Below are positions 830 through 29,157 of a DNA stretch of 30,048 nt, one piece after another; position 1 is the stretch's first letter, and the number at the start of each line of letters is the position of its first letter. The notes beneath the pieces were generated by a model. That model saw nothing but the letters and a program-made list of their open reading frames with translations, was not told where the DNA came from and ran no database searches. The position numbers were made by a program, and so were the translations under genes. The stretch comes from a virus. The DNA lies in IMG/VR virus record IMGVR_UViG_3300021963_000463, positions 1 to 30,048 of that record; one strand, written 5' to 3'.

Positions 830-847
830 TAATTAAAAAGGATATAT

Positions 848-10374: not shown

Positions 10375-10405
10375 AGGTTAGGAGAAGGTATTTGTATGTA
10401 GTTAA

Positions 10406-11188: not shown

Positions 11189-11221
11189 GGTTGTATGTTG
11201 CAGGTCAGTTTTATTTGGTTG

Positions 11222-13086: not shown

Positions 13087-13103
13087 TTGTAACCTCACCT
13101 ATC

Positions 13104-13132: not shown

Positions 13133-13145
13133 ACATCCTTGGACA
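13127..13145. promoter_or_regulatory. Candidate operator dyad between divergent promoters
   Basis: TGTCAAA (13127-13133) and TTGGACA (13139-13145) form an imperfect inverted repeat (6 of 7 pairs, 5-nt centre). It covers the -35 boxes of both divergent promoters. A dimer of the adjacent Cro-like protein binding here would block both. Because the arms overlap TTGACA-type boxes, part of the symmetry may come from the promoters themselves. Confidence 0.5.
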
Positions 13146-13168
13146 AATATACATAAAAATGTTATAAT
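13140..13168 (+). promoter_or_regulatory. sigma70 promoter of the HTH-sigma-terminase operon
   Basis: TGGACA (13140-13145, one mismatch) and TATAAT (13163-13168) are 17 nt apart. Six bases (AGAGGT) separate the -10 box from the ATG at 13175, so the mRNA is probably leaderless for the first gene, like lambda cI transcribed from PRM. Confidence 0.8.
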
Positions 13169-13174
13169 AGAGGT

Positions 13175-13384
13175 ATGGCAAAACGAAATGATTTGTTGAT
13201 CACAGAATTAACACAAATGCAAATAGCGGAAAAGCTAGGAGTAGCTCAACCACTTATAAGTAGATGGATGTCAGGAAGGTGTATGCCACGTCCATCAACA
13301 ATAACTAAATTAGCAGAAGCATTAGGTGTAGATGAAAAAGAGTTATTAGTTTATATATATGACAAAAATAAGAAGATGGTCTGA
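13175..13384 (+). CDS. Cro/C1-type (XRE family) HTH transcriptional regulator
   Basis: This 69-aa protein is little more than one XRE helix-turn-helix: LTQMQIAEKLGVAQPLISRW at about residues 12-31, then STITKLAEALGVDEKEL. It lacks the C-terminal peptidase or oligomerisation domain of CI repressors, so it resembles Cro or a plasmid copy-control regulator. It is the first gene of an operon and lies beside a dyad overlapping both divergent promoters, so autoregulation is likely. The ATG is 6 nt from TATAAT. Its 3' end overlaps the next gene's start by 26 nt in another frame. Confidence 0.88.
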   Translation: MAKRNDLLITELTQMQIAEKLGVAQPLISRWMSGRCMPRPSTITKLAEALGVDEKELLVYIYDKNKKMV

Positions 13385-14126
13385 ATATTACAAGGTCAAG
13401 AAGGATAATGAGGGAAGACCAACATTATCTCAAGACGCTTTTTTGTCATCTCAATTAAACACTAAAAACAGAGAGAAAGCCCTCAACGAATACATTGAAC
13501 TAAATATGCTAGTAGTCCATAAAATCTGCAAAAATTATAGGTGGAGTAATATTGATTATGAAGATTTAGTGATGTATGGAGTTGAAGGATTAATAGCTGC
13601 AGCCGATTGTTATGATCCAAGTAAAGGATTCAAGTTCCACACCTTTTGCTATCATTATATACTTGGAAGAATTAGAAGAGCTTTAGAACATCACAACAAT
13701 ATTATCAAGATACCAGCACATATAAACTTAGCAAAATTAAGAATCAACCATTTAGACGAAGATAAAGAATACTCTGATGAATTCTTATTGACACTTACAG
13801 ATGAAAGATACACTTTGAATGATATTAAAACAGCATTAAGTGTTAGAAAATTATATGCTATTGATAACTTGGATTTGATTGTAGATAGAGTAGATGAAAG
13901 TATTAAAAATCCTGAGGTTAAGATATGTATTGATGAGATTCTAGATACATTAAAACCTATAGAAAAACAGGCAATAGAACTCAAATTTGGATTGAATGGA
14001 CATAAACCACATTACTATAAAGAGATTGATAAAATATTAGATATTGATAGTGATGGTGTAATTAACAGGGCATTAGTAAGATTGCGTAATAAGGGTTTGG
14101 AAAGTTTACTGGATTATTTAAAATGA
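13359..14126 (+). CDS. Phage RNA polymerase sigma factor (sigma70 family)
   Basis: The 255-aa protein has a clear region 2 at about residues 41-110, with DYEDLVMYGVEGLIAA, YDPSKGFKFHTFCYHYI and RIRRALEH, the core-binding and -10 recognition segments. A short region 3-like part follows (IKIPAHINLAKLRI). A region 4-like HTH lies near the C-terminus (LKPIEKQAIELKFGLNG to NRALVRLRNKG). Region 1.1 is absent. It should redirect host RNA polymerase to phage late promoters; the repeated 14-mer upstream of portal, protease and connector genes is the obvious candidate target. The start overlaps the HTH gene by 26 nt, and its stop overlaps the terminase small subunit start (ATGA), so it is made before or with the packaging enzymes. 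Confidence 0.9.
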   Translation: MTKIRRWSEYYKVKKDNEGRPTLSQDAFLSSQLNTKNREKALNEYIELNMLVVHKICKNYRWSNIDYEDLVMYGVEGLIAAADCYDPSKGFKFHTFCYHYILGRIRRALEHHNNIIKIPAHINLAKLRINHLDEDKEYSDEFLLTLTDERYTLNDIKTALSVRKLYAIDNLDLIVDRVDESIKNPEVKICIDEILDTLKPIEKQAIELKFGLNGHKPHYYKEIDKILDIDSDGVINRALVRLRNKGLESLLDYLK

Positions 14127-16260: not shown

Positions 16261-16722
16261 ATGGGAAGAAAACCAGTAGATCCAATTATAAGATTCAATA
16301 AGAAATATATAATTGATGAAGAAACGCAGTGTTGGTTATGGACAGCTTGCAAGAACCAAAACGGATACGGACAATTTAGAGTTGGTAATGTTTTAATGAA
16401 AGCACATCGTTATGCATACGAATATTTCATTGGTCCTTTAGATCCTGAATTAGAAGTTTGCCATAATTGTGCTACGCCATCTTGCTGTAATCCTCGACAC
16501 CTCAGACAAGATACACGCAGCAGTAATATGATTGATATGTCTTATGCAAAAACTAACAATATGCAAAAGCTAACAGTGGAACAAGTAATAGAAATAAAAC
16601 AAAAATTACAAAACTATTACTTTGGATTAGGAAAAAAATTAGCTAGAGAATATGGTGTTGATTCTCGAACAATATCAGTCATTAAAACAGGCAGAAATTG
16701 GAAGCACTTAGATATATCGTAA
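16261..16722 (+). CDS. HNH endonuclease with C-terminal HTH
   Basis: The 153-aa protein begins with CWLWTACKNQNGYG and has the HNH_3-type core: AHRYAYEYF (His49), EVCHNCATPSCCNPRHL (Cys67, His68, Asn77, His80). The cysteines probably form a zinc site. Residues 115-150 (KLAREYGVDSRTISVIKTGR) form a small HTH for DNA recognition. This layout is typical of free-standing phage homing endonucleases. A packaging-associated HNH role is also possible, because it lies between terminase and portal genes and such nucleases assist cos cleavage in some HK97-like phages. It starts 23 nt after the ParB-like gene with no strong SD. Its TAA stop lies inside the candidate late promoter motif of the portal gene. 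Confidence 0.85.
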   Translation: MGRKPVDPIIRFNKKYIIDEETQCWLWTACKNQNGYGQFRVGNVLMKAHRYAYEYFIGPLDPELEVCHNCATPSCCNPRHLRQDTRSSNMIDMSYAKTNNMQKLTVEQVIEIKQKLQNYYFGLGKKLAREYGVDSRTISVIKTGRNWKHLDIS

Positions 16723-16727
16723 AATAA
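16714..16727 (+). promoter_or_regulatory. Candidate phage-sigma late promoter upstream of portal
   Basis: ATATCGTAAAATAA is identical to the copies at 21220 and 23997. Its last base lies 31 nt before the portal ATG, and a GAGGATT ribosome binding site stands between. The motif overlaps the HNH stop codon. There is no sigma70 -35 box at a suitable distance. Confidence 0.7.
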
Positions 16728-16757
16728 CATTAGATTACATCGAGGATTTTAAAAAGC

Positions 16758-18401
16758 ATGGGAATATTTGACCGTTTTTTAGGTAGAGGACAAAAGAATC
16801 AACCAATAGCAACTGTAAACCAAAATTTACCATTGCCGCAAACGATGAGAGGCTACAACTACCTCTCTGGAATTGGTTTACAGGATTTATTTGCTAACTT
16901 AAGTAGACGATTACCTAATACAAACAAAGACTGGCAAAATATCGCTGGTGACTTGATGCTTAACTCCATTGTAGCGATAGGAATGGACTATTATATCAGA
17001 GCATTTAGTCAAGCGCTTCCAATGGTTTACAGATTAGTTCCAGGTTCAGAATCAGAATATGAAAAATATCCTGAACATCCTATGCTTGCACTTTTAGCCA
17101 ATCCTCAATACCAATTAGCTCCAACACGTTTCTGGTCTAATTGTATCATAGATTACAAGATTTATGGCAACGTTTATATCAGAAAAATTAGAAAATCAAA
17201 AGGCGGTCCAGTTATAGGATTGCAGTTTTTACCTTCTCAACAATGTCAGCCAGTTGGAGATAATGTTAATCCAATCACACACTATAATTATGTTGTTGAC
17301 GGTACTCCATATGCTGTTTCCGTAGAAGATATCATTCACATTGCTTACGGTCGTGATCCAGTTGACTACAGACTTGGACGTTCACCTCTTATGTCAGTTT
17401 TAAGAGAGATAGCTACAGATAACGTAGCTTCTTCTTGTGCTTATGGTTTAATGAATAACTCTGGATTACCTTCTATTATGGTTAGTCCTGATGCTACTGA
17501 TCAAATTGTAGACGTAAGTGATGATGATTTACGAACGCTTAAAAGACGATTAGAAGATTCATTTTCCGGTGATAATGCTGGTTCTGTTGCTGTTATGTCC
17601 GGACCATTTAAAGTGGAGCGTATCAGTTTTAGTCCTAACGATATGGCTCTTGATTCTATTCGTCACACCCCCGAAGAAAGAGTTAGTTCAAGTATGGGAC
17701 TTAACTGTATGGTCTTAAATTTGTCGGCAGGTCTACAAAACTCAACCTATAGTAACATGCAAGAAGCAGAACAAGCAGCATGGAACCAAGGTGTAATTCC
17801 TCTTCTCACTGTGTTTGCTGAATCAATTACTCAACAACTTTTAAATGAATATAGTGAAAGTGTTGATGGTGATTTCTTTAACTGGGACCTTTCGAAAATT
17901 AAAGCATTACAAGAAGACAGTTATCAAGAAGCTAAAAAGGCTGAATTACTCTATAAATCTGGAATTATAGATAGAGCTGAAGCAAAGAGATTAGTTGGCT
18001 ATGATTACAATGAAACTGATGAACAAATCTACCATCCAGAAGCCACACCTATATCTACTCAAAATCCTAATAGTTTTGTAAGATCAATCAAAGCAATGCC
18101 AAATAAAGGTATGCAAGATGAAGCTAAAAGAGGATTAGCGTGGAGAGAAGAGTTTAATCGTGGTGGAACAGAAGTAGGAATTAATAGAGCAAAACAAATA
18201 TCTGCAGGACGTGAATTATCTGAACGTGATATTTTAGATATGTATAGTTTTTTTGCTAGACACGAAGTAGATAAAACAGCTGAAGGATTTAAACCAGGTG
18301 AAGACGGATATCCTAGTAATGGAAGAATTGCATGGAGTCTTTGGGGTGGTGATGCAGGATATGAATTTGCAAAGAGAGAAAGAAACAAAATAAAAGATTA
18401 G
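16758..18401 (+). CDS. Portal protein with an extra C-terminal domain
   Basis: The first 420 residues follow the HK97-type portal pattern: a Gly-rich start, LMLNSIVAIGMDYYIRAF, a central WSNCIIDYKIYGNVYIR region and EDIIHIAYGRDPVDYRLGRS, then QEAEQAAWNQGVIPLLTVFA and helical MDYYIR/EAKRLVGYD-type segments. Twelve portal subunits form the DNA channel at one capsid vertex. From about residue 444 a separate domain follows (MQDEAKRGLAWREEFNRGGT, then SFFARHEVDKTAEGFKPGED and GRIAWSLWGGDAG), which I know as a domain also fused to other phage portals or proteases. A GAGGATT SD precedes the ATG. The gene is followed by a strong terminator and preceded by the repeated 14-mer, so it seems to be a single-gene late unit. 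Confidence 0.92.
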   Translation: MGIFDRFLGRGQKNQPIATVNQNLPLPQTMRGYNYLSGIGLQDLFANLSRRLPNTNKDWQNIAGDLMLNSIVAIGMDYYIRAFSQALPMVYRLVPGSESEYEKYPEHPMLALLANPQYQLAPTRFWSNCIIDYKIYGNVYIRKIRKSKGGPVIGLQFLPSQQCQPVGDNVNPITHYNYVVDGTPYAVSVEDIIHIAYGRDPVDYRLGRSPLMSVLREIATDNVASSCAYGLMNNSGLPSIMVSPDATDQIVDVSDDDLRTLKRRLEDSFSGDNAGSVAVMSGPFKVERISFSPNDMALDSIRHTPEERVSSSMGLNCMVLNLSAGLQNSTYSNMQEAEQAAWNQGVIPLLTVFAESITQQLLNEYSESVDGDFFNWDLSKIKALQEDSYQEAKKAELLYKSGIIDRAEAKRLVGYDYNETDEQIYHPEATPISTQNPNSFVRSIKAMPNKGMQDEAKRGLAWREEFNRGGTEVGINRAKQISAGRELSERDILDMYSFFARHEVDKTAEGFKPGEDGYPSNGRIAWSLWGGDAGYEFAKRERNKIKD

Positions 18402-18454
18402 GTATAATAATTGTGTTGGTTCGTTATTTCCTAGATTCCTTAAACTGAGAGAGA

Positions 18455-18488
18455 CAAAAACACCAGACTGAAAAGTCTGGTGTTTTTG
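18455..18488. terminator. Bidirectional terminator after portal, GAAA loop
   Basis: A 15-bp perfect stem runs from 18455-18469 (core CACCAGACT) to 18474-18488 (core AGTCTGGTG) around GAAA, with A and T tracts. It separates the portal gene from the convergent leftward gene ending at 18494. The 53-nt stretch between portal stop and hairpin contains GGTATAAT (18401-18408) without a -35 box; I see no ORF in it. Confidence 0.93.
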
Positions 18489-18493
18489 TTTAT

Positions 18494-18784
18494 TTACTTA
18501 TTTGGAGAGTATCCAAAAGTATAAGCATAAAAACCTCTTGCATTATCTTGTTTGCTTACATATTCTGCTTTTGTGAAATCCATAACCCACTTATTTTTAT
18601 ATTGATCCTTAACACCAAAGGTTTCTGGTTTTGAAACATCTTCAAGATATAAGTCATTGATCATGGCAAAATTATATAACTCATCCAAATATTCTTCACT
18701 AATCCCTTTAGACTTATCTCTTACAACTATACAACCACATTGACCTGATTCAAAAACTCTAATGCTTTTTGTGTTCTTAAACAT
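18494..18784 (-). CDS. Hypothetical protein (96 aa)
   Basis: The product begins MFKNTKSIRVFESGQCGCIV and includes YLDELYNFAMINDLYLEDV and a C-terminus rich in Tyr and Phe. I recognise no domain, signal peptide or membrane segment. It has its own sigma70-like promoter (TTGCAT, 17 nt, TATTAT at 18850-18822). The promoter block is repeated upstream of the next leftward gene, so the two are probably co-regulated early genes. GGA lies about 7 nt before the ATG. It is bounded on both sides by terminators, hence a stand-alone unit, as is usual for accessory 'moron'-like genes. Confidence 0.7.
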   Translation of the reverse strand: MFKNTKSIRVFESGQCGCIVVRDKSKGISEEYLDELYNFAMINDLYLEDVSKPETFGVKDQYKNKWVMDFTKAEYVSKQDNARGFYAYTFGYSPNK

Positions 18785-18813
18785 TTAATTCCAACTTTCT
18801 AACTAAACTTCCA

Positions 18814-18856
18814 ACACCAATATAATACCAAAGGTTATAAAGTAATGCAAGAAAAA
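18814..18856 (-). promoter_or_regulatory. Promoter block of the 96-aa gene, copy 1 of a repeated element
   Basis: On the minus strand TTGCAT (18850-18845) and TATTAT (18827-18822) are 17 nt apart. About 30 nt around them (ACACCAATATAATA, then CAAAGGTTATAAAG on the plus strand) match 19164-19206 with one mismatch. The spacer contains TATAACC-TTT-GGT, an imperfect dyad that could bind a regulator. Confidence 0.7.
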
Positions 18857-18881
18857 ACCCTCATTTATTTTTGAGGGTTTT
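18854..18881. terminator. Terminator of the leftward 85-aa gene
   Basis: AAAACCCTCA (18854-18863) pairs with TGAGGGTTTT (18872-18881), loop 8 nt, with A-rich sequence that reads as a U tract on the minus strand. It lies just after the stop of the leftward gene at 18886. Confidence 0.85.
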
Positions 18882-18885
18882 CTTT

Positions 18886-19143
18886 TCAAACACTAATCTG
18901 ATAAAATCTCTGGTTGATCTCTTTAATGAAATAATAGAAACTTGCTTGAAAGCTACATTCTTCTAAATCAACATTCTTACAATTCTTTATAGCTTTCATT
19001 ACATCTTTCTTATCTACAATTCCTTCAGTTTTTAAATTGTCTTTGATTTCATAATAAAAACTATCAAAATCACCAGAAAGATATCTTCCACTAATATCAA
19101 TCATCTCTTCAACTAAAAACTTCAAATCAATAATTTTCTTCAT
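18886..19143 (-). CDS. Hypothetical protein (85 aa)
   Basis: This small, helical, charged protein begins MKKIIDLKFLVEEMIDISGR and contains VDKKDVMKAIKNCKNVDLEE. No family is recognised and there is no membrane segment. A promoter with full -35 consensus (TTGACA, 17 nt, TATTAT at 19201-19173) lies upstream, followed by a leader of about 25 nt with AGGAAAGG. The gene is divergent from the rightward unit at 19262, and its promoter block is a copy of the one before the 96-aa gene, suggesting shared control. Confidence 0.7.
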   Translation of the reverse strand: MKKIIDLKFLVEEMIDISGRYLSGDFDSFYYEIKDNLKTEGIVDKKDVMKAIKNCKNVDLEECSFQASFYYFIKEINQRFYQISV

Positions 19144-19163
19144 AACTTTAACTCAACCTTTCC

Positions 19164-19206
19164 TACACCAATATAATATCAAAGGTTATAAAGGATGTCA
19201 AGAAAA
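19164..19206 (-). promoter_or_regulatory. Promoter block of the 85-aa gene, copy 2 of a repeated element
   Basis: On the minus strand TTGACA (19201-19196) and TATTAT (19178-19173) are 17 nt apart, inside a sequence that nearly repeats 18814-18856. The -10 and spacer are conserved while the -35 differs slightly (TTGACA against TTGCAT), so this copy should be the stronger promoter. Confidence 0.72.
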
Positions 19207-19226
19207 TAGTGAAAAAAGTTTTGCAA

Positions 19227-19255
19227 TTGCTATATATAACGTTTTAGTGTATAAT
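19227..19255 (+). promoter_or_regulatory. Rightward promoter with -10 box 6 nt from ATG
   Basis: TATAAT at 19250-19255 is followed by six bases (ATAGCT) and the ATG at 19262. The -35 (TTGCTA, 17 nt upstream at 19227-19232) is weak. The spacing equals that at 10918 and 13175, and again predicts a leaderless mRNA. Confidence 0.55.
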
Positions 19256-19261
19256 ATAGCT

Positions 19262-19555
19262 ATGAAGTACAGAGATTTGATTACATTGGCTAAGTTTAAG
19301 GCTATGGGTTTTAAAAATATTGAGATGAAATATATCTCTGAAATTAAACTTAACAGAATAGCTTGTGAGATTGATTTAAAAGTTGGCAAAGGTACGTACA
19401 CAATTCCTTTTGAATGCTATAGTAATGTCCAGCCAAAGATTGTTTTATCAAGGCATTCTTTATTTCAAGAAGTGTTAAAGCAATTGGAAGAGTTTAGTGC
19501 CAAAGAATATAAAGAAAAACTGGCATATTTAGAAAAGATTGGAGTAAGGGATTGA
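19262..19555 (+). CDS. Hypothetical protein (97 aa), first gene of a small operon
   Basis: The product starts MKYRDLITLAKFKAMGFKNI and has a likely helical C-terminus, SLFQEVLKQLEEFSAKEYKE. No domain is recognised. An in-frame GTG at 19247 would add five residues but overlaps the -10 box, so the ATG at 19262 is preferred. Its TGA overlaps a TTG that seems to start the next gene (TTGA at 19552-19555). It heads a run of five overlapping or closely spaced genes (19262-21043), all unknown, between portal and protease; they could be early functions or lysis genes. Confidence 0.65.
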   Translation: MKYRDLITLAKFKAMGFKNIEMKYISEIKLNRIACEIDLKVGKGTYTIPFECYSNVQPKIVLSRHSLFQEVLKQLEEFSAKEYKEKLAYLEKIGVRD

Positions 19556-19770
19556 AGTTTAATTATCTTTTAGAGCAGCAAGTAGGATGTTGTTCTTGTG
19601 ATAAATATGAACGAGCTTATATTATTTATTGGTATTACAGCTCTCCATATTGTGTAGATTGCTGGTGTAAATTGATGGATTTTAACGCCGCAAGAAGGAC
19701 TATTGTAATGTTCGAGACTGAGAAATATAGAAGCAAAAACAATGGAAAAAACAAGGCTAAGAAATCCTAA
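19552..19770 (+). CDS. Small cysteine-rich protein, possible zinc ribbon (72 aa)
   Basis: The start is a TTG overlapping the previous stop (TTGA), with GGAG 8 nt upstream and AAGGG closer. Near the N-terminus is GCCSCDKYERAYI and about 20 residues later YCVDCWCK, an arrangement of two close cysteine pairs that could bind one zinc ion. The C-terminus is basic (RSKNNGKNKAKKS). Small zinc proteins of this kind often bind nucleic acid or a host protein; no specific family is recognised. It overlaps the next long frame by 29 nt. Confidence 0.6.
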   Translation: MKFNYLLEQQVGCCSCDKYERAYIIYWYYSSPYCVDCWCKLMDFNAARRTIVMFETEKYRSKNNGKNKAKKS

Positions 19771-20269
19771 AAAAGATATAATGGTCCAACTCAAAAGCCT
19801 AGAATGTTTGAATAGTGGAAGTTCTGATTGGCATATGAGTCTTGCTATATATAAAAAGATTGAAGAAAGAATTAAGTGGGAGGAAATAATGGATAAAGAA
19901 CGTTTAGATGCAATTGTAAAGCAATGGTTCGTTAGTGGTAAACCTAATCAAAGCATCAAATTAGATCGTGGTTTTTTGATTAATATTAGTTGTGTTAGAA
20001 ATAAACATGACAATATGTGTGATTACAGATTTACATTACAATCACCTAATCATCACAACACTAAATGGATTGATGGTGATACAATAGATTCTTATTTTGA
20101 TCCAGTTAATATAATCTCTGAAGTATTATGGGATGGATTTAAAACTTTATTCAAATTAGAAGGCAAGTATTTGATTAATCTTGAGCAATTAGAAATCAAA
20201 GAAGGCAATATTACTCAAAGCTACGATAAATATACTTTGCCTCCATCAATAGACAAAGACGGATTTTAA
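19742..20269 (+). CDS. Hypothetical protein (175 aa; or 126 aa from an internal start)
   Basis: No domain is recognised. Two starts are credible. The ATG at 19742 overlaps the preceding gene by 29 nt and has a weak SD. The in-frame ATG at 19889 (MDKERLDAIVKQWFVSGK) has an excellent GGGAGG 5 nt upstream and gives 126 aa. The upstream 49 codons are free of stops and look protein-like, so both products may be made. The C-terminal half contains DGDTIDSYFDPVNIISEVLW and KYLINLEQLEIKEG. The stop overlaps the next ATG (TAATG), a coupling used repeatedly in this genome. Confidence 0.62.
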   Translation: MEKTRLRNPKKDIMVQLKSLECLNSGSSDWHMSLAIYKKIEERIKWEEIMDKERLDAIVKQWFVSGKPNQSIKLDRGFLINISCVRNKHDNMCDYRFTLQSPNHHNTKWIDGDTIDSYFDPVNIISEVLWDGFKTLFKLEGKYLINLEQLEIKEGNITQSYDKYTLPPSIDKDGF

Positions 20270-20433
20270 TGGATTTTTTAGATAGATTACTTTTATTTAC
20301 CTTTGCCGTGTTTAATTTATATATTCTTTGGAGAGTAAATAAAATTGAAAATGAAAGACCAAGTTATGAAGATATCAAAAACATCTTCGAAATTATGATT
20401 GATAAGATAGAAAGTAAGGATATATATGAATAG
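20269..20433 (+). CDS. Small membrane protein (54 aa), candidate holin or lysis accessory
   Basis: An ATG at 20269 overlaps the previous stop (TAATG) and opens a 54-codon frame ending DIYE and TAG at 20431-20433. It overlaps the next gene by 8 nt. Residues 7-21 (LLLFTFAVFNLYILW) form one hydrophobic segment near the N-terminus. After it comes a charged helical tail (NKIENERPSYEDIKN to DKIESK). One membrane span and a charged tail fit a small holin, a spanin-like part or a membrane-targeted inhibitor. The coupling at both ends makes translation likely. Function is unknown. Confidence 0.6.
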   Translation: MDFLDRLLLFTFAVFNLYILWRVNKIENERPSYEDIKNIFEIMIDKIESKDIYE

Positions 20434-21043
20434 TGTTTACAAGTTTATTGCTAAGAGTGTTAACAAGTTAGATGGAACTCACAAGCAATATTTTATGGAT
20501 GAAAGATTACGAATTATTATTGAGATTTATACTCATGCATTATCTTGTGAAACATATGATTATTGGATCACTGTAGGAAATAGTTCATCTAAGGCTTATT
20601 TAAACTCTGGATGCAAAACAAAAGATGAATTAATTGATAAGATTTATGATTCTTATGTTAAAGACTTTGCAAAATATGATGAAATGCTCAATGATCCTTT
20701 ACTTTATGCAGGATATTTGAACAATAAAATCTATAGTCTTGAACTTGAATTAAAAATGCAAAAGAATGCAAGACAAGAAATGAAAGAAGATATTGAGAAA
20801 TTGCAACAACAAGTAAGTGATCTTCTTAAAAATAACCAATCATTAATAGAGTATTCTTCTAAAACAGTCAAAGAAAATTATGAACTGAGATCTGAATTAA
20901 GAAGACTTATAGCAGATTTACAAGAAGAAAAAAATGCTCATACCACAACACAATGTAGAGCTATTTTTGCCACTCATATTCTTAATGGACACAGAGATGA
21001 AAGAGTGAAAGAGTTTATTAAAGAGCATGATATAATAATTTAG
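20426..21043 (+). CDS. Coiled-coil hypothetical protein (205 aa)
   Basis: The ATG has AAGGA 7 nt upstream and overlaps the membrane-peptide gene by 8 nt. Residues 1-95 look globular (YFMDERLRIIIEIYTHALSC, then DYWITVGNSSSKAYLNSGCK). Residues about 105-170 form a strong coiled coil (LELELKMQKNARQEMKEDIE, KLQQQVSDLLK, then ENYELRSELRRLIADLQEEK). No family is recognised. It is the last gene of the 19262 unit. Its tight linkage to a small membrane protein could mean that they act together. Confidence 0.65.
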   Translation: MNSVYKFIAKSVNKLDGTHKQYFMDERLRIIIEIYTHALSCETYDYWITVGNSSSKAYLNSGCKTKDELIDKIYDSYVKDFAKYDEMLNDPLLYAGYLNNKIYSLELELKMQKNARQEMKEDIEKLQQQVSDLLKNNQSLIEYSSKTVKENYELRSELRRLIADLQEEKNAHTTTQCRAIFATHILNGHRDERVKEFIKEHDIII

Positions 21044-21096
21044 TCGAAAGACAAATCCAGACCATTGGTTAATACTTTAGAATTATTTTAACTACC

Positions 21097-21170
21097 TGGT
21101 ATAATTCTCATGTCTTAATAGCATGAGACCTGGGGAAAAAAGAATCAGCCTAAAAAACTGATTCTTTTTT
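21097..21170 (+). ncRNA. Candidate short RNA: extended -10 promoter, 5' hairpin and terminator
   Basis: TGGTATAAT (21097-21105) is an extended -10 box; the -35 region is poor. Right after it TCTCATG (21106-21112) pairs with CATGAGA (21122-21128). Next come CCTGGGG and a 13-bp terminator, AAAAAAGAATCAG (21136-21148) with CTGATTCTTTTTT (21158-21170). No ORF fits in the interval. A transcript of about 60 nt would be made and stopped before the late promoter at 21220. The hairpin could instead be an operator or simply the end of the 19262 operon transcript. Confidence 0.4.
21136..21170 (+). terminator. Intrinsic terminator before the protease-capsid unit
   Basis: A 13-bp stem (21136-21148 with 21158-21170) has a 9-nt loop and a T6 tail. 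It ends transcripts from the 19262 operon (or the candidate short RNA), so that protease and capsid genes depend on the following promoter motif. Confidence 0.88.
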
Positions 21171-21219
21171 GTTTTTAAGGCATATAACTGTAAATGTGTA
21201 ATACTTTAAAATATCTTAA

Positions 21220-21233
21220 ATATCGTAAAATAA
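21220..21233 (+). promoter_or_regulatory. Candidate phage-sigma late promoter upstream of protease-capsid
   Basis: ATATCGTAAAATAA is identical to the copies before portal and connector genes. Its last base lies 31 nt before the ATG at 21264, with TTGAGGATT as SD. It lies 50 nt after a strong terminator, so a promoter is needed here. Confidence 0.72.
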
Positions 21234-21263
21234 AATAAGACAAAGCTTCTTGAGGATTGAAAT

Positions 21264-22604
21264 ATGTTTAAAGCAATGCCAGATGATTTAAAAATGGGTG
21301 ATTATGTTTCTTGGGGCACTTCTGCTTCTGATGCTAGGGGTAAAATTGTTGATATCAGAACAGATGGCGAAGTTGAATCTAGCATTTCTGGCTATACATT
21401 AACAGGAACACCACGAGATCCAGTGTATGTTATTAAATTAGTGCAAAAAGATCAAGATGGCAAAGATGTTTTAACAGAGCAAACAGTAGTACATAGAGCT
21501 GATGCATTAAGAGTAATTCCTGATCCTATAAAGTCAATGAAGACTTTTTTTAGTGCAGAATTAAAAGCAAAAGAAAATGGAATTGTTGAGGGATATTTAG
21601 TTCGCTTTGGCAATCCTAATGACACTGACCTTGAAAAAGATTATTTTACCAAGTCCACTGATTTTGGATTTGAGTTTGATAATGGTGAAAGTCATAAACT
21701 TGGTCTTTATTATAATCACGGAATGGATAAAGTTCTTGGTACTAAAAAGATTGGTTATGGCGAAGTAATGATGGATGATAAAGGTCTTTGGTATTCTGCT
21801 CAACTTAACATGGCAGACGAATATTCCAAGATGATTTATGATCTTGCTAAAAAAGGTCAATTAGGTTTCTCAAGTGGTTCAGCAAGTCATATGGTTGAGA
21901 GAGAAATGATGGGCAAAGCTTATGAAATTAAAAGATGGGCATTAGCTGAAGCATCATTAACACCTACACCTGCTGAATATCGTAACAAAGCAGAAGCCAA
22001 GAGATATTTTGATGAAGAGGGCAGATTTATTGACTATACCGAAAAAGAAAAAATGGAAATGTCAAAGAAATCTGAAGATGAATACGAAGATGAAGGTGAG
22101 GACGTTGATGAAATGGTGGAAGGATTAATGATGATTAATGCTACACCAGAAGAAATTGCCTCTACTATTTATGATGGAGTAGAGGAAGACTTGGTCGCTG
22201 ATTCTATTCATTGCCTCTATAAACGTATGATTGAGGGTGTTTTAGGCATTGTTGAATCTGGTGGTGATATTGCTACTATCAATGCAGTAATTCAAGGATT
22301 CCACGATAGAGCTTTAATGGTTGCAGAGAAATATGTTGCAATGCCAGAAGCTCAAATGTCTATGGAAATGGAAGCGATGAAATCAATTGTTGCTAAATCA
22401 CCTGAAAATATTAAAGAATGTGAAAGAGCCTTGCGTGATGCTATGGACCTTTCTCGCAGCCAAGCTAAAGGTTTGGCAAAATTGGTTTGGAATCATTTGT
22501 GTGATGCAAATGAAACTCAAGAACCAGAAATAAAAACAACCAATATTGAAAAAGATTCTGAGAGAAATGCGCTACTTAAGGAAGCTTTGAAATATTTAAT
22601 TTAA
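21264..22604 (+). CDS. HK97-type prohead protease with N-terminal TUDOR-like domain
   Basis: The 446-aa protein has three parts. Residues 10-85 (GDYVSWGTSASDARGKIVDI and VVHRADALRVI) resemble the DUF2945/HVA1 TUDOR-like domain. Residues 93-250 are the S78 prohead protease: EGYLVRFGNPNDTDLEKDYF, YYNHG with the probable catalytic His152, and GFSSGSASH with the nucleophile Ser203 or 204. Residues 260-446 are acidic and helical, possibly a scaffolding or substrate segment. The enzyme cleaves the capsid N-terminal delta domain during maturation, which agrees with its position just before the capsid gene. The TUDOR-like role is unknown; binding to portal or host factor is a guess. Confidence 0.9.
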   Translation: MFKAMPDDLKMGDYVSWGTSASDARGKIVDIRTDGEVESSISGYTLTGTPRDPVYVIKLVQKDQDGKDVLTEQTVVHRADALRVIPDPIKSMKTFFSAELKAKENGIVEGYLVRFGNPNDTDLEKDYFTKSTDFGFEFDNGESHKLGLYYNHGMDKVLGTKKIGYGEVMMDDKGLWYSAQLNMADEYSKMIYDLAKKGQLGFSSGSASHMVEREMMGKAYEIKRWALAEASLTPTPAEYRNKAEAKRYFDEEGRFIDYTEKEKMEMSKKSEDEYEDEGEDVDEMVEGLMMINATPEEIASTIYDGVEEDLVADSIHCLYKRMIEGVLGIVESGGDIATINAVIQGFHDRALMVAEKYVAMPEAQMSMEMEAMKSIVAKSPENIKECERALRDAMDLSRSQAKGLAKLVWNHLCDANETQEPEIKTTNIEKDSERNALLKEALKYLI

Positions 22605-22635
22605 GTCGAAGTACAAGACTAAAAAGGTAAAAAAA

Positions 22636-23937
22636 ATGACACTTGAAGAAATCCAAGCCAAAATCAAAGAAAATGCGATTAAGGCTACAGAAATCCTTGA
22701 TGCTGAAAATGCAGACACAACTGCAGCTAAAGCTCTTATTGATCAAAATAAGCAATTGGAAGAAAAAGCAGAAATGATTAAAGCTCTTGCTGAAGTTCCT
22801 GTTGCTAATGAAAACGTAGAGGTTAAAAAAATGTCCGATATTATCATTCCTGGTGCTAGCTCTTATGGTAACGTAAAGAGTTTCTCACCAGATACTCGTG
22901 CTGAAAAAGAAAAGATGGGTTTTGCTTTTGGTCAGATGGCTAAGATGGTTGGCCGTAATGACAAGAAGGCTCATCAATGGTTAGTAGAAAATGGCTACTA
23001 CACCAAAGGTCAAAACGAAACAACCGATGCAGACGGTGGATATTTAGTCCCACAGATTCTTGCAAATGAAATTATCTTCCTCAGAGATAAGTTTGGTGTA
23101 ATTCGCCAAAACGCCCGTGTCATGGGTATGTCCAGTGACAACTTGAACGTCCCGAAGAACTCTGCTTCCACAACTGCTTACTGGCCAAATGAGAACACCA
23201 ACATTACTGCTTCTCAAGTAACCTTTAGCAATGTTCAAGTTCTTGCAAAGAAACTTGCTATTCTTACTCAAGTTTCTTCAGAATTGCAAGAAGATTCAAT
23301 TGTAGACGTCGGAGCAGCTTTAGCCGAAGATATGGCCTATGTCATGGCTTACAACGAAGACCTTGCTTGTCTATTTGGTGACGGTACGTCAACATACGGC
23401 GGAATCACTGGTATCTTCAAGGAAATCGCTGATATTGCTGGAAACGCTGGTTATATTGAAACTGGTGCTGCAACAACTGGTAACTGGGGTGCTGCTACTC
23501 TTGCTGACCTTAGAAAACTCGCTGGTGCTGTTTCTCAATATGCAGATAACCAAGACCTCAAATGGTACATGTCTCGTGCATTCTTCCAATCTGTAGTATG
23601 TGCTGACCTTGATGCCCTCACTGGAAATGGTTTCTTTGACTTAACTAATGCACCAGGACCAAACCCAACATTGTTCGGTTATCCAGTTGTTTACACTCAA
23701 GTTATGACAAGTGATCCAACTCCTGCTGCTGGAACTGTTCTTGCTATGCTTGCAAACCTTAAGACTGGTTCTATCATGGGCTCTAGACGTGATCTTAGAA
23801 TCCAAGTTAGTGATCAAGTTGGATTTATTTCTGACTCACTTTACTTTAGAGCTACAGAGCGCTTCGGGTTCAAATACCATGACCTTCCAACAGCTACAAG
23901 TGCAAATTCTGCAGCTGTTCTTGTTGCTAAAGCATAA
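22636..23937 (+). CDS. Major capsid protein, HK97 fold
   Basis: The 433-aa protein opens with a helical, charged delta-like domain (about residues 1-65: EEIQAKIKENAIKATEILDA, KQLEEKAEMIKALAEV), which the upstream protease should remove. The rest follows the HK97 family: DADGGYLVPQILANEIIFL, a Y/W-P-N-E region (TTAYWPNENTNITASQVTFS), KKLAILTQVSSELQEDS, YNEDLACLFGDGTSTYGGIT and C-terminal FRATERFGFKYHDL. AAAGG precedes the ATG. It is the most strongly expressed gene to be expected; codon choice is less extreme than in its neighbours (more C-ending codons), and a strong terminator follows. Confidence 0.96.
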   Translation: MTLEEIQAKIKENAIKATEILDAENADTTAAKALIDQNKQLEEKAEMIKALAEVPVANENVEVKKMSDIIIPGASSYGNVKSFSPDTRAEKEKMGFAFGQMAKMVGRNDKKAHQWLVENGYYTKGQNETTDADGGYLVPQILANEIIFLRDKFGVIRQNARVMGMSSDNLNVPKNSASTTAYWPNENTNITASQVTFSNVQVLAKKLAILTQVSSELQEDSIVDVGAALAEDMAYVMAYNEDLACLFGDGTSTYGGITGIFKEIADIAGNAGYIETGAATTGNWGAATLADLRKLAGAVSQYADNQDLKWYMSRAFFQSVVCADLDALTGNGFFDLTNAPGPNPTLFGYPVVYTQVMTSDPTPAAGTVLAMLANLKTGSIMGSRRDLRIQVSDQVGFISDSLYFRATERFGFKYHDLPTATSANSAAVLVAKA

Positions 23938-23953
23938 TCTTATCACACACAAG

Positions 23954-23983
23954 AAAAAGAGCAAGAGAAATCTTGCTCTTTTT
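23954..23983. terminator. Terminator after the major capsid gene, GAAA loop
   Basis: AAAAAGAGCAAGA (23954-23966) pairs with TCTTGCTCTTTTT (23971-23983) around GAAA, followed by further T residues. It isolates the capsid transcript from the connector and tail genes. Confidence 0.93.
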
Positions 23984-23996
23984 TTCTTTATCACTA

Positions 23997-24010
23997 ATAT
24001 CGTAAAATAA
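23997..24010 (+). promoter_or_regulatory. Candidate phage-sigma late promoter upstream of connector and tail genes
   Basis: This is the third identical ATATCGTAAAATAA, 30 nt before the ATG at 24040, with TTGAGGATT between. It lies 13 nt after the capsid terminator. From here no further terminator was found until 10337 across the map closure, so it may serve about 16 kb of structural genes. Confidence 0.72.
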
Positions 24011-24039: not shown

Positions 24040-24543
24040 ATGCCATTAAGTCGTTTGCAAGCTATTAAAAAATTAAGCTGGATGTGTCAAGCAGAAGCAT
24101 TTCCAGAGCTAGATTCTAATGCGCTTGGAGAATTAATTGATGAGCACAAAAGATACTCAACTTGGACAGCTTCTGAAAGTTATAGTGTTGGAGATCAAAT
24201 TGTTCCGACAGTTCCTAATGGACGTGTTTATCTGTGTACTATTGCTGGTACAAGTGGCACTGTGGAGCCTAATTTTCCTCAAATTATGTATGCTGTTGGT
24301 CAAAACTTTCAAGATGGTGTAATTCCAGCAGATGCAGATCCTTTAACATGGAGAGATGCTGGTTTTACTCAACAAGAAATCTATGATGTTAGAGCTTCCG
24401 CAAGAGAAGGATGGATGAGAAAAGCTAGTATTGCAGCTAATTTACTCAATACAGATGATGGTGCAACAAAGGTAGATCTCAATAAATTAATTCAAAATTG
24501 CCATGAACAAGCAGCTAAATTCAGGTCATTTGGAATACTCTAA
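24040..24543 (+). CDS. Head-tail connector (adaptor) with an inserted carbohydrate-binding-like domain
   Basis: The ends of this 167-aa protein (MPLSRLQAIKKLSWMCQAEA and a helical C-terminus with VRASAREGWMRKASIAANLL) fit the helical gp6-like adaptors that dock under the portal. Between them, residues 42-110 contain WTASESYSVGDQIVPTVPNG, RVYLCTIAGTSGTVEPNFP and TWRDAG, the pattern of a small chitin-binding-type (CBM5/12-like) beta domain common in phage structural proteins. The insertion may project from the neck. It is the first gene of the long late unit. The stop overlaps the next ATG (TAATG). Confidence 0.75.
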   Translation: MPLSRLQAIKKLSWMCQAEAFPELDSNALGELIDEHKRYSTWTASESYSVGDQIVPTVPNGRVYLCTIAGTSGTVEPNFPQIMYAVGQNFQDGVIPADADPLTWRDAGFTQQEIYDVRASAREGWMRKASIAANLLNTDDGATKVDLNKLIQNCHEQAAKFRSFGIL

Positions 24544-24920
24544 TGCCTACTCCAACCACCCTTTTAAATACACTTAGAGCCGCATCAGCTTATTATATGA
24601 TGTCTGATAACGTTAAGATATTACGATCAGAAAGCTGGAATGATGAGTATGGTGGTGTGTATACAGATTACACAGTTGTCAGTACCACAAAAGCTAGATT
24701 AACACATAGGCAATATCAAGAAGAGCCTATTGGTGGTGGAATTACTAACAAAGATGAATATTATTTCATTTTTGAAGATAACATTGACATTAGATTTGAA
24801 GACAGAGTGCAAATTGTAAATGATCCGAACAGTACTAGATATTTCCTTGTTGTTGGTGTTGATGATGTTGTTACACAAGGTATTTTTAAAACTGCCAAAG
24901 TAGAGGTTAATTATAACTAA
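24543..24920 (+). CDS. Head closure / head-tail joining protein
   Basis: This 125-aa, mostly beta protein contains SESWNDEYGGVYTDYTVVST, a pattern seen in phage head-tail joining proteins (Phage_H_T_join, SPP1 gp16-like), and IRFEDRVQIVNDPNSTRYFLVVGVDDV, where such proteins have a strand-rich end. It would seal the connector and form the surface for tail binding. Both ends are coupled by TAATG or ATG overlap to the neighbours. The family call is based on pattern, size and place. Confidence 0.75.
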   Translation: MPTPTTLLNTLRAASAYYMMSDNVKILRSESWNDEYGGVYTDYTVVSTTKARLTHRQYQEEPIGGGITNKDEYYFIFEDNIDIRFEDRVQIVNDPNSTRYFLVVGVDDVVTQGIFKTAKVEVNYN

Positions 24921-25162
24921 TGGGAACCATCGACTGGCCTAATTTAATTCTAGGTATAGGATCTAATGCAATCTTGATTGTATCAGGCTTTGTATCTATG
25001 CAAGTTAAAATAGCAGGATTACAAACAAAATTAGAAGGCTTTGAGAAATCATTTGAAAAGCTTGTAAATAAAGTTGATACCTTAGATAAGCATCAATTAG
25101 AGCTTCACACTAATTTAACAAGATTAGAGACTCGTTTTGAAATGATAGAAAGAGAGAGATAA
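24920..25162 (+). CDS. Membrane-anchored coiled-coil protein (80 aa), XhlA/holin-like candidate
   Basis: Residues 8-27 (NLILGIGSNAILIVSGFVSM) form one hydrophobic segment. They are followed by a regular coiled coil to the C-terminus (LQTKLEGFEKSFEKLVNKVD, then TNLTRLETRFEMIERER). Size and layout resemble XhlA/BhlA-type haemolysin or holin accessory proteins, which have the hydrophobic part at the other end in XhlA, so the match is loose. Its place inside the head-tail operon is odd for a lysis gene. It may instead be a structural or superinfection factor. The ATG overlaps the previous stop, and the next gene begins 4 nt later. Confidence 0.6.
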   Translation: MGTIDWPNLILGIGSNAILIVSGFVSMQVKIAGLQTKLEGFEKSFEKLVNKVDTLDKHQLELHTNLTRLETRFEMIERER

Positions 25163-25166
25163 TAAA

Positions 25167-25889
25167 ATGCCTATTCCACCATCAGCAAACGTATTTTTAG
25201 ATTTTGGTAATGCATCTTGTTTCGTAAATGGCGGAACAGCAGTAAATGACTTATCTGGAAATGGTAAAAACTGGACTTTAAACAACACTTCTTACACTTA
25301 TGATGGAACTGTTGGTGCCGTTACATTACCACCAGGAACATATGCAGACGGAAATAACACACAATATGGTTATGGGACAGCTGCGTTTACTATTTTAACA
25401 TGGCTAAAATTAGATCCTGTAACAAGTAGTTCAGCTAATATTTGTATTTTTGGTCCTGATGGTAGTGGAACTAGACTTTGGTATTTTTTGAATGGTAATA
25501 ATGGAGCATGTTCCGATACTGGTAGTTCTGCAATTGTATGGGGTGGATCTACTTTCGATGGTAACTGGCATTTAGTAGCTTTAACAAGACCAGCAAATGG
25601 AACAGCTGGACAACAAAATTTTTATATCGATGGTGCACCATTGTCTCAAACTGCAACATTAGCACCAGGAACAAACTTAAACCTTGGAAATGGTGGATAT
25701 GCAACTATTCACACAACTTTTAATCCAGATCCAATTACAATATCTACTTTTAAAATATATATGGCTGAATTAACTGCTGGAGAAATATTATCTATCTATA
25801 CTGCAGAAGCTGGAAGATATACAGGTGGACCAACACCTTATGTAGGTAAATCAAATGGAAGAAGCTTTGGTCAAGGCTTTTCACAATAA
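25167..25889 (+). CDS. LamG/concanavalin A-like beta-sandwich protein
   Basis: The 240-aa protein follows the LamG-like jellyroll pattern: VFLDFGNASCFVNGGTAVND, FTILTWLKLDP, SIVWGG-type strand with DGNWHLVALTRPANGTAGQ, NFYIDGAPLSQ and ISTFKIYMAELTAGEILSIY. Such domains bind carbohydrate or mediate particle decoration. It ends with a Gly/Phe-rich tail (KSNGRSFGQGFSQ), which may be an assembly or attachment peptide. GAGAG precedes the ATG closely. Being placed between head-closure and tail-completion genes, it could be a head or neck decoration rather than a tail fibre. Confidence 0.78.
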   Translation: MPIPPSANVFLDFGNASCFVNGGTAVNDLSGNGKNWTLNNTSYTYDGTVGAVTLPPGTYADGNNTQYGYGTAAFTILTWLKLDPVTSSSANICIFGPDGSGTRLWYFLNGNNGACSDTGSSAIVWGGSTFDGNWHLVALTRPANGTAGQQNFYIDGAPLSQTATLAPGTNLNLGNGGYATIHTTFNPDPITISTFKIYMAELTAGEILSIYTAEAGRYTGGPTPYVGKSNGRSFGQGFSQ

Positions 25890-25930
25890 TGAATAATATT
25901 ATTAATAGCACTATATCGGAGTAATAAATA

Positions 25931-28900
25931 ATGTTTTATGTAAAGCAAAACGAAACTACAGCTTCTTTAAAAAGAGTTCCAATCTTAATGGTTGATGAAA
26001 CAGATGGAGCAACACCTGAAACTGGATTAACTTTATATCCAGAAGTTTCAATTAATGGTGGTGCTTATGCTGGTGCTGCTGGAACATGGTCTGAAGTAGG
26101 ATATGGTGTTTATTATTATCAATTAGATTCCACTGAAATATCTACTTTAGGTTGGGCAGGAATCCATGTTACTGCTTCTGGTGCTAGAAATTATGATGCA
26201 ATTGCTCAAATAGCTGCTTTTAATATGTATTCAGCTGCTGGTGTAGGAATCACTGCAGGCGATGTATGGTCATATGATATCTCAGCTGAAACTACTGCTG
26301 GTACTGCTGGAAGTCAATTAAATCTAGCTGCATTACCTTCTGGTGCTGGCGCTACTGCTGGTGATGTCTGGGATTATGTTATTGGTGGAGATAGTGCTCA
26401 ATTCCTTCTTGGTAATATTAATACCAATGTAAACAACCTTCCTAGTGCAAATACTATCAGAGATGCAGTCTGGAATGCTCAATTAGATGAATCTGCTGGT
26501 TTCTCAACATCACCTCCATATGCTAGTGGTTTAATGAGTCAAGCTGGTACTGCTGCTACAACTCTTCCTGCTGACGTTTGGTCATATGCTACCAGAACAT
26601 TAACATCTGGTGGTGGTGCAACAGCTGGAGACATCTGGACTTATGATATCTCTGCAATCACTACTTCCGGTACTGCTGGAAGTCAATTAAATCTTGCAGC
26701 AATTCCTTCTGGTGGCGCAGGATTGACAGCTGGAGACGTTTGGGATTTCAATATTACTGGATTTGGTGTAACAGGTTCTGCAGCTGAGTATGTTACTCAA
26801 ACAAACTTTACTGTTGGTAATATTGAAACTTATGTAGCTAACCAAACTCCACAAGATATTTGGACATATGCAGGTATTGAAGGAAGAACAATTACTGGTG
26901 GTTCTGTAACAAGCGTAGTTGATCCTGTTTCTATTACAACTGCTGCTATGGCTGGTGTTGCTAATACTGTTTGGACAGTTGCAAGCAGAACAATTACTGG
27001 TGGTACTGCAGATACAGTAACCAGTGTTACTAATACTGTTGATATTTCAACTCAATCCGTAACTGATATCTGGTCTGAGGATGTTTCTTCATACTCAACA
27101 CCTTCTGCTGGTTATGATTTAACACAAGCAGCAAGTGGTGGTGCGGGAATCACTGCTGGTGATGTCTGGTCCTATGATATTTCTGCTATAGTTGGAGCAG
27201 GTTTAGCAGGATCACAACTTAACTTAGCTGCTTCTGCAATTGGTGCTACAAGTGGTGATATTGCTACAGCTGTATGGGATTACACTGGAACAACTATACC
27301 AACATCAACCAAGGAAACTCTAGAATCTGCAAATACTTATGCTTCTAATGCTTCATCTCAAACTGGTGCGTCTGCAATTAGGGATGCAGTTTGGGATACA
27401 GATCTTTCATTCCTTAGTGGAACAACTCAAGCAGCTGGTATTCTTTATGAAGCAGCTGCAGGTACTACACTTAATGCTCCAAGTGCAGTATGGTCTTATG
27501 CAACTCGTACATTAACTTCTGGTGGGGGAATCACAGCAGGTGACGTATGGTCATATGATATTTCTGCAATCACTTCTGCTGGTACTGCTGGTTCACAACT
27601 TAACTTAGCTGCTTTACCAAGTGGAGGAAGTGGATTGACTGCTGGCGATGTCTGGGCATATGATATCACTTCTGCAGTTCCTAATTCATCTGCAGAAGTG
27701 TTAAACTTTGCTAAATATTATGCTGATGTAGCTCAAGCTAATACTAATGATATTGGTGGTACTGTTTGGGGATATAATGCAACTTTAGGTGGAAGCATTC
27801 CTGCAGCTGGTGGATATTTAGTACAAGCTGGAGATGCAACAACCACTGCAATTACAGCTGCTGATGTATGGTCTTACAGCCCTAGAACAATTACTGGTGG
27901 ATCTGTCACTAGTGTTGTTGATGGCGTAACTGTAACTACTAACAATGATAAAACTGGATATTCTTTATCTGCAAGTCAAACATTTGATTTAACAGGCAAT
28001 ATCACTGGTAATTTGAGTGGTTCTGTTGGTTCTGTCACTGCTAATGTTGGTTTATCCACTGCAACTCAATCTTCTATTGCTAACTCTGTATGGGGATATG
28101 CAACCAGAACATTAACAAGTTCAGGTACTGCTATCACTGCTGGAGATGTCTGGGATTATGCGGGTGGAAGAACAATTACTGGTGGTACTGTTGCTGATGT
28201 AACAAATCCAGTTTCAATTACAACTGCATCTATGAGTGGAGTAGCTGGAACAATTTGGAATTCTGCAGTTGCTTCTTACAGCACTAATGGTACTTATGGC
28301 AAGCTTGTTTTACGTTCTGATCAAGCATCACAAACAGGCAATGTTACTTTAAGAAGTGCAGCTGGCATTAACATGGTTGATGCAGATGTTCATAGAATTG
28401 ATAATGATGTTGATGCTGCAACAAACCTTAAGAATGCTTTAACTGGTATTGGCGCTTCTTGGACAGGAAATGTTGTTGGTAATGTCACTGGTTCTGTCAA
28501 TTCAGTTGTTAATCCAGTTGATGTTTCTTCTGCTTCTATGAGTGGAATTGCTAACACAGTATGGACAGCTGCTACTAAGACAATTACTGGTGGAACTGTT
28601 GATACTGTAACAAATCCAGTCAATGTATCTTCTGCATCTATGAGTGGAGTTGCTGGAACTGTATGGTCATATGGTTCAAGAACTCTAACAAGTGGTGCAG
28701 GCGCTACAGCAGGTGATATCTGGACTTATAATATTGCTTCTATTTCAACATCTGGTACTGCTGCTAAACAACTTAATGATGCAGCTGTTTCTGGAAGTGT
28801 AGTAACAGTTGTCAATGGTCCTTATGTTCTCACCTCAATTGCTGAAGGAACAGATGGTCAATTAGATATCTTGAGAAATAGTGTTCAAAGCATCCAACTT

Positions 28901-29155
28901 AACCTTGTTGATGGTAATGGTTCTCCATTCAATATTGGTGGAAATTACACTGTAGATGTGGATGTTTACGATGTATCTGGAGCTCTTGCAGCTAATTACA
29001 CTCCAACTGTTGATTTTGCAGGAAATGGCATTATATCCTTCGATATTGACACAGATGTAACTGGTACAGATGGAAGATACACCTTGGTAGTATCTCTTAC
29101 TGATGGAGATGTAATCAAGCTTGGACCACTCAACATTCTTGTGAGACCACTCTAA
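25931..29155 (+). CDS. Giant repeat fibre protein with AGDVWSYDISA-type repeats
   Basis: The 1074-aa protein begins with a folded region (FYVKQNETTASLKRVPILMV, then ETDGATPETGLTL) that I know from phage structural proteins with similar repeats. From residue 110 to about 980 it is made of short Trp-containing repeats of three types: AGDVWSYDISA-TTAGTAGSQLN (five copies), VWSYATRTLTSGG (four), and RTITGGSVTSVVDPVSITTA with its variants (about six). The C-terminal 90 residues (YTVDVDVYDVSGALAANYTP) look like one beta domain. A long trimeric fibre is likely. CGGAGT lies 10 nt before the ATG. The repeats make copy-number change by recombination or assembly collapse possible. Confidence 0.8.
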   Translation: MFYVKQNETTASLKRVPILMVDETDGATPETGLTLYPEVSINGGAYAGAAGTWSEVGYGVYYYQLDSTEISTLGWAGIHVTASGARNYDAIAQIAAFNMYSAAGVGITAGDVWSYDISAETTAGTAGSQLNLAALPSGAGATAGDVWDYVIGGDSAQFLLGNINTNVNNLPSANTIRDAVWNAQLDESAGFSTSPPYASGLMSQAGTAATTLPADVWSYATRTLTSGGGATAGDIWTYDISAITTSGTAGSQLNLAAIPSGGAGLTAGDVWDFNITGFGVTGSAAEYVTQTNFTVGNIETYVANQTPQDIWTYAGIEGRTITGGSVTSVVDPVSITTAAMAGVANTVWTVASRTITGGTADTVTSVTNTVDISTQSVTDIWSEDVSSYSTPSAGYDLTQAASGGAGITAGDVWSYDISAIVGAGLAGSQLNLAASAIGATSGDIATAVWDYTGTTIPTSTKETLESANTYASNASSQTGASAIRDAVWDTDLSFLSGTTQAAGILYEAAAGTTLNAPSAVWSYATRTLTSGGGITAGDVWSYDISAITSAGTAGSQLNLAALPSGGSGLTAGDVWAYDITSAVPNSSAEVLNFAKYYADVAQANTNDIGGTVWGYNATLGGSIPAAGGYLVQAGDATTTAITAADVWSYSPRTITGGSVTSVVDGVTVTTNNDKTGYSLSASQTFDLTGNITGNLSGSVGSVTANVGLSTATQSSIANSVWGYATRTLTSSGTAITAGDVWDYAGGRTITGGTVADVTNPVSITTASMSGVAGTIWNSAVASYSTNGTYGKLVLRSDQASQTGNVTLRSAAGINMVDADVHRIDNDVDAATNLKNALTGIGASWTGNVVGNVTGSVNSVVNPVDVSSASMSGIANTVWTAATKTITGGTVDTVTNPVNVSSASMSGVAGTVWSYGSRTLTSGAGATAGDIWTYNIASISTSGTAAKQLNDAAVSGSVVTVVNGPYVLTSIAEGTDGQLDILRNSVQSIQLNLVDGNGSPFNIGGNYTVDVDVYDVSGALAANYTPTVDFAGNGIISFDIDTDVTGTDGRYTLVVSLTDGDVIKLGPLNILVRPL
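26260..28790 (+). repeat. Internal coding repeats of the giant fibre gene
   Basis: Near-identical stretches recur, for example around 26255-26340, 26620-26710, 27145-27240, 27520-27620 and 28700-28780 (AGDVWSYDISA and AGSQLNLAA segments). The DNA copies differ mainly at third codon positions, so they are old enough to have diverged while the protein motif stayed fixed. Confidence 0.8.
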
Positions 29156-29157
29156 TT

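Follow-up and report, generated by a model that had tools for sequence, protein, structure and literature searches.

The window analysed here is the complete IMG/VR virus record IMGVR_UViG_3300021963_000463, a stretch of 30,048 nucleotides (nt) to which all motif coordinates refer. It contains three exact copies of a 14-mer, ATATCGTAAAATAA, in front of the portal gene, the prohead protease gene and the gene which immediately follows that for the capsid. From comparison of related sequences it appears very probable that this 14-mer is a promoter element, and that it represents a class of promoters found throughout one clade of phages. A sigma factor of 255 amino acids (aa) is encoded in the same window, and this protein is probably the reader of the motif.

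The motif in the window

All three copies are on the plus strand, at the positions which had been listed in an earlier note on this DNA (Table 1). By chance, 0.0006 exact copies would be expected on both strands (first-order Markov model). When up to two mismatches were allowed, scanning of the window yielded no copy beyond the three exact ones, and matches with three mismatches occurred about as often as by chance (a total of 16 matches versus 11.7 ± 3.5 expected). Rfam returned no match.

From the end of the 14-mer to the ATG the distances are 30, 30 and 29 nt for the portal, protease and connector copies, respectively, and GAGGATT is present in every gap; the spacing and the ribosome site which had been claimed before were thus found by measurement. 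The genes named at that time (portal, protease, first connector) agree with database matches, namely Phage_portal for the first (Table 1), Peptidase_S78 of prohead proteases (4e-12) for the second, and phrog_20658, head decoration (1e-9), for the third. Terminators had been reported in front of two copies. The one preceding copy 3 is clear (Table 1), and copy 2 is preceded by a hairpin with a 9-nt loop and a T run at about 21142–21173, which was read by eye. For copy 1, which shares bases with the stop codon that closes an HNH gene, no terminator is located immediately upstream. Since terminators are located between the units, each late unit should be dependent on its own promoter.

Conservation of the motif among relatives

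The relatives comprised about 45 IMG/VR contigs of one phage clade, which were found by the capsid protein, by the motif together with the ribosome site, and by a profile of the sigma factor; the regions upstream of their portal, protease and connector genes were extracted and compared. Scanning IMG/VR for the exact 14-mer as the sole criterion was abandoned, since among the matches listed most were unrelated chance ones, and such matches were informative only in the context of a ribosome site or a protein. The search of related genomes, which the earlier note had proposed, placed the motif upstream of the same three genes: with up to three changes it is present in 82 of 83 regions, and 65 contain the exact sequence TATCGTAAAATA. 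In the relatives, none of the regions upstream of the capsid, helix-turn-helix (HTH) and sigma genes contained it. Four named phages with distant relatives of the portal or protease possess neither this sigma factor nor TCGTAAAAT; they are too distant to serve as a strong control.

After similar sites were collapsed, 50 distinct sites remained (13 portal, 13 protease, 21 connector and 3 holin), with the consensus aTATCGTAAAATA. Identity among them is 92% within positions −18 to −6 (numbered from the predicted transcription start, see below) versus 36% upstream and 37% downstream; when sites of different gene classes are compared, identity is 91% in the motif versus 32% and 35% in the flanks. 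C-14, G-13, T-12, A-11, A-9 and A-8 are identical in all 50 sites, and the remaining positions of this block match the consensus in 43–49 of them. The left end is variable (TAT, TGT, TAC, TCT, GAC) and the right half is constant; apart from the ribosome site, the sequence downstream of the motif shows background identity. Eleven longer contigs, amounting to 278 kb, contained 17 exact 12-mers versus 0.05 expected, every one of them preceding a late gene (16 portal, protease or connector, one holin).

The motif is conserved alongside sigma genes with identities down to about 40%, and its distance from the start codon differs among the relatives. The site stays with the portal gene irrespective of its upstream neighbour, which may be HNH, terL or another gene. 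In contig G022 (L197), a module consisting of HTH, sigma, terS, terL and portal genes (585–6100) is inverted versus the other late genes, and the portal motif is inverted with it. An additional exact site precedes the gene for a protein of 93–96 aa in four contigs (L214, 14867, minus strand; L216, 4606; L217, 833; L219, 3705); the protein of L216 matches a holin family (1.5e-16). A search for the holin of the relatives in the window did not find it.

Geometry of the candidate promoter

If TAAAAT is placed at −12 to −7, the predicted +1 position is located seven bases past the last T, which in the window would be A, A and G for the three copies (Table 1). A purine is found at this position in 42 of the 50 sites, a frequency which would be compatible with a start 6–8 bp downstream.

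A −35 element of the housekeeping sigma-70 type (TTGACA-like, at a spacing of 16–18 nt) did not emerge as a consensus over the 50 sites once the T runs of terminators had been set aside. At the 16 distinct sites of portal and holin genes, which are not preceded by terminators, the −35 region was without any significant position, and A-18 stood out as the clear additional base. Two candidates for such an element were rejected: a T-rich stretch at −34 to −30 over all sites, the signal of which is accounted for by terminator T runs and is not significant at any position of the portal and holin sites; and TTGG, present at −34 in a number of portal sites, where inspection by eye places it on a Trp codon close to the end of the HNH gene. 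In the window, only the portal copy has a partial −35 match (four of six bases; TTGGAA at 16698, spacer 16). The −10-like geometry together with the lack of a −35 consensus gives the appearance of a single-element promoter; the earlier description, one conserved block with little −35 conservation, applies at the sites which lack a preceding terminator.

The phage sigma factor

The protein which had been assigned to the sigma70 family belongs there according to its Pfam and PHROG matches (Table 1); sigma-70 region 2 (PF04542) was found in 11 of 11 members of the phage family, with the window protein above the cut-off. An AlphaFold model (mean predicted local distance difference test score, pLDDT, of 78) matches chains of SigA and RpoS over about the full length, i.e., regions 2–4; the Foldseek E value was 1e-6, and the template modelling score (TM-score) was low (0.4) due to uncertain domain orientation. 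Alignment to SigA by HMMER extends over region 4; Pfam Sigma70_r4 matches one of 11 members. The best curated family is the cyanobacterial SigA/RpoD-like TIGR02997 (2e-23; 83 bits versus a cut-off of 384.5), and the best sequence match with a solved structure is cyanobacterial SigA, PDB 8gzg (1e-15). This cyanobacterial leaning may be taken as a clue to the host, albeit only as a hint. Applied to bacterial genomes, the sigma profile gave nothing beyond partial matches of 23–38% (assemblies of Armatimonadetes, Roseovarius, Synergistaceae and Bacillota), and therefore no host or prophage was identified.

Regions 2.3–3.0 align without gaps with sigma-70, and F427, T429, R441, P453 and H455 (E. 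coli numbering) are kept. The changes comprise W433-W434, with H or Y at the first position and Y at the second; Q437, A438 and T440, replaced by G103, R104 and R or K, respectively; and E458, replaced by L, M or R, adjoining N123. G103, R104 and N123 are invariant among the sigma factors of the clade. The changes at Q437, A438, T440 and E458 are located at the positions aligned with the residues which read T-12 and G-14 in sigma-70. Together with the weak region 4, these changes would fit an altered −10 preference and the loss of −35 reading; such a fit is no proof of specificity. A more detailed proposal, to which we give slightly less than an even chance, is that the protein represents a separate lineage from a SigA-like ancestor (the nearest known being cyanobacterial), which would read one extended −10 block with obligatory C-14 and G-13 by means of altered regions 2.4 and 3.0, including the invariant G103, R104 and N123, and the region 4 of which would have lost −35 reading.

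Sigma locus and host-type promoters

The sigma factor is encoded in every contig which covers the place upstream of terS, with the gene order HTH-sigma-terS-terL and identities of 39–100%; the 22 sigma loci which the profile detected are all within the same phage clade. In the window, host-type boxes for early genes, which had been noted before, are present as TTGACA-17-TATAAT at 13132 and 10953, both on the minus strand, and as TGGACA-17-TATAAT in front of the sigma operon (Table 1). The combination of a host-type promoter at the sigma operon with the motif at the late units suggests an early-to-late order. A divergent gene at 12688–13098 (minus strand) possesses a perfect TTGACA-17-TATAAT promoter and, with the HTH-sigma pair, resembles a switch region.

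Proposed mechanism and alternative explanations

In the mechanism proposed here, host polymerase would transcribe the genes for the HTH protein, the sigma factor and terminase early, using the host-type promoter. The sigma factor would then bind host core polymerase and direct it to the motif without a sequence-specific −35 contact, thus opening the three late units. The 14-mer would be the core of a late promoter, aTATCGTAAAATA, which starts units of virion genes at three separate places; TAAAAT would occupy the place of the −10 hexamer, and TATCG would act as an upstream extension with obligatory C-14 and G-13. Transcription may start 7 nt past the last T and produce leaders of 25–26 nt containing the GAGGATT ribosome site. 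We consider this whole reading, late promoters of a holoenzyme with the phage sigma, to be likely. The computational tests support the early-to-late switch which had been suggested earlier; that the sigma factor is the reader, as well as the promoter role, the start sites and the late timing, we infer.

Several points weigh against it. The only upstream region without the motif is that of the portal gene of L130, where the end of terL abuts the portal gene. The holin gene of G027 is preceded by a degenerate motif only, which is located directly after the tail gene. On its own, TAAAAT could be recognised by a housekeeping sigma. Linkage of sigma and motif within a single clade is one evolutionary association, not many independent ones, and as such it supports the sigma as reader and does not establish it. 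As a caution, promoters of phage 7-11 predicted from the genome alone (PMC4331800) disagree with those which were mapped (PMC8948821); the present case is better supported than that prediction, due to conservation over dozens of diverged contigs. Relatives with the sigma gene which lack the motif had been regarded in the earlier note as evidence to the contrary; among about 20 sigma-bearing contigs with a portal start, all except L130 carry the motif before the portal gene, and L130 has it before the protease gene.

A host sigma, housekeeping or alternative, could read the motif as an unusual −10 promoter, with the phage sigma having other targets. TAAAAT retains the three strongest −10 bases (T-12, A-11, T-7), and TTGGAA is located 16 nt upstream of one copy; this explanation appears unlikely, however, in view of the invariance of C-14 and G-13, which to our knowledge housekeeping promoters do not require, the lack of a −35 consensus at the motif sites, and the use of TTGACA/TATAAT elsewhere in this genome, for early and accessory genes. 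Even less probable would be a binding site for a phage activator, e.g., the HTH protein, which recruits host holoenzyme. Such a role could be suggested by the linkage of the HTH gene to sigma in all sigma loci and by a partial dyad in the motif (TAT..TA..ATA), but conservation is one-sided, with C-14 and G-13 lacking a symmetric partner and a variable left end opposite a constant right half, and an activator site at a fixed place overlapping the −10 element would be unusual. The reading of the motif as a dyad operator was rejected on account of this one-sided conservation.

An element of the mRNA, active in processing or translation control instead of as DNA, would be in keeping with the fixed orientation and the closeness of the ribosome site. 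It has very little probability, considering that the start-codon distance varies among relatives, that downstream identity except for the ribosome site is at background, and that two of the three window copies directly follow terminators, where new transcription is needed. Finally, the window by itself, having three copies only, would permit a chance repeat or a recent duplication of upstream regions; this was practically excluded by the 12-mer counts and the motif-versus-flank identities between gene classes given above, and by the divergence of the sigma genes.

Other features of the window

The coordinates of the late units and of the elements discussed above are listed in Table 1. The window ends, 1–392 and 29657–30048, overlap by 392 bp with 11 mismatches clustered at 127–271; thus, the record probably represents a whole genome of about 29.66 kb in circularly permuted form, the ends of which would stem from two strain variants. 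Iteron-like repeats (AATCGTCAAACAAA at 11086, 11108 and 11152, and an inverted copy at about 11176) occupy 11086–11190, before the gene at 11307. As no replication gene was recognised among the window proteins scanned, these repeats may be an origin or an operator. Between the late units, possible short transcripts with GGTATAAT boxes and terminators within about 100 nt are located at 18400–18491 and 21076–21175. Late units 1 and 2 are separated by an accessory block (18494–21043) which contains small genes on both strands, with variable content among relatives, and has host-type promoters, e.g., TTGACA-17-TATTAT at 19201 (minus strand).

Table 1. Positions of candidate promoters, sigma locus, late units and terminators in the window.
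Feature	Position	Strand	Details	Basis
XRE-type HTH protein	13175..13384	+	overlaps sigma start by 26 nt	adjoins sigma in all sigma loci found
Sigma factor of the phage (255 aa), proposed motif reader	13359..14126	+		Sigma70_r2 7e-10; PHROG 351 sigma family 5e-33; fold matches SigA/RpoS
Host-type promoter TGGACA-17-TATAAT of the HTH-sigma-terS-terL operon	13140..13168	+	directly before operon	
Candidate late promoter block 1, ATATCGTAAAATAA, before portal	16714..16727	+	predicted +1 16732 (A), leader 26 nt	exact copy; same site in relatives with diverged flanks; start from geometry
Candidate late promoter block 2, before prohead protease	21220..21233	+	predicted +1 21238 (A), leader 26 nt	exact copy; relatives; geometry
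Candidate late promoter block 3, before first connector/decoration gene	23997..24010	+	predicted +1 24015 (G), leader 25 nt	exact copy; relatives; geometry
Late unit 1: portal	16758..18401	+		Pfam PF04860 4e-43
Terminator after portal (unit 1)	18452..18491	+		
Late unit 2: prohead protease and major capsid protein	21264..23937	+	protease 21264–22604, capsid 22636–23937	
Terminator between unit 2 and promoter block 3	23954..23983	+		
Late unit 3, first part: connector, fibre and tail genes	24040..30032	+	runs over joined ends into 56–10335	ends overlap
Late unit 3, second part: major tail protein, tape measure and tail genes	389..10335	+	followed by hairpin + T run, about 10340–10375	hairpin by eye

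Comparison with known systems

No report of the motif was found in the open-access literature which was searched. The kind of system is known; the pair of sigma factor and promoter appears to be new as far as the searched open-access literature shows. It would provide a candidate pair with base-level detail from an uncultured phage clade with genomes of about 30 kb, consisting of a small protein and a 13-bp site, and, if true, another way for a sigma factor to drop the −35 contact and to change the reading of the −10 element. The motif should also allow late transcription units to be called from the sequence of related uncultured phages, as with the additional holin sites.

Late promoters of phage T4, TATAAATA, consist of a single −10-like element without a −35 element and are read by the sigma-like gp55; late transcription there requires the clamp gp45 and gp33. 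The present sites are similar in having a single −10-like element and no −35 element, whereas in the 30-kb window no gene for a clamp or for replication was recognised. The cyanobacterial SigA/RpoD-like subfamily (TIGR02997; PDB 8gzg) is the best match of the window sigma, which differs from it by altered regions 2.4 and 3.0 and a weak region 4; SigA-like late promoters have been reported for the Microcystis phage Ma-LMM01 (PMC5780444). In phage 7-11, SaPh711_gp47 reads a bipartite promoter, GTAAtg-(16)-aCTA (PMC8948821). A phage sigma and late promoters before structural genes, candidate ones in the window, would be common to both systems, and so would region 4, of which the window sigma has a weak, region-4-like counterpart; a second promoter element was not seen at the motif sites.

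The single element tAATGTAtA is read by phi32_gp36 of phage phiEco32, with starts 6–8 bp downstream (PMC8948821). Shared features are a phage-encoded sigma factor, few promoters which precede structural units, a single element near −10 with no −35 element, and early genes on host sigma-70 promoters. In contrast, the motif here is aTATCGTAAAATA, with the consensus tAATGTAtA not being present; phi32_gp36 is without homology to region 4, whereas the window sigma has a region-4-like C-terminus according to alignment and model; and the genome of the window has about 30 kb. The proposed system would function in the manner of the single-element promoters of phiEco32 gp36, the nearest described system, from which it differs in both motif and sigma factor.

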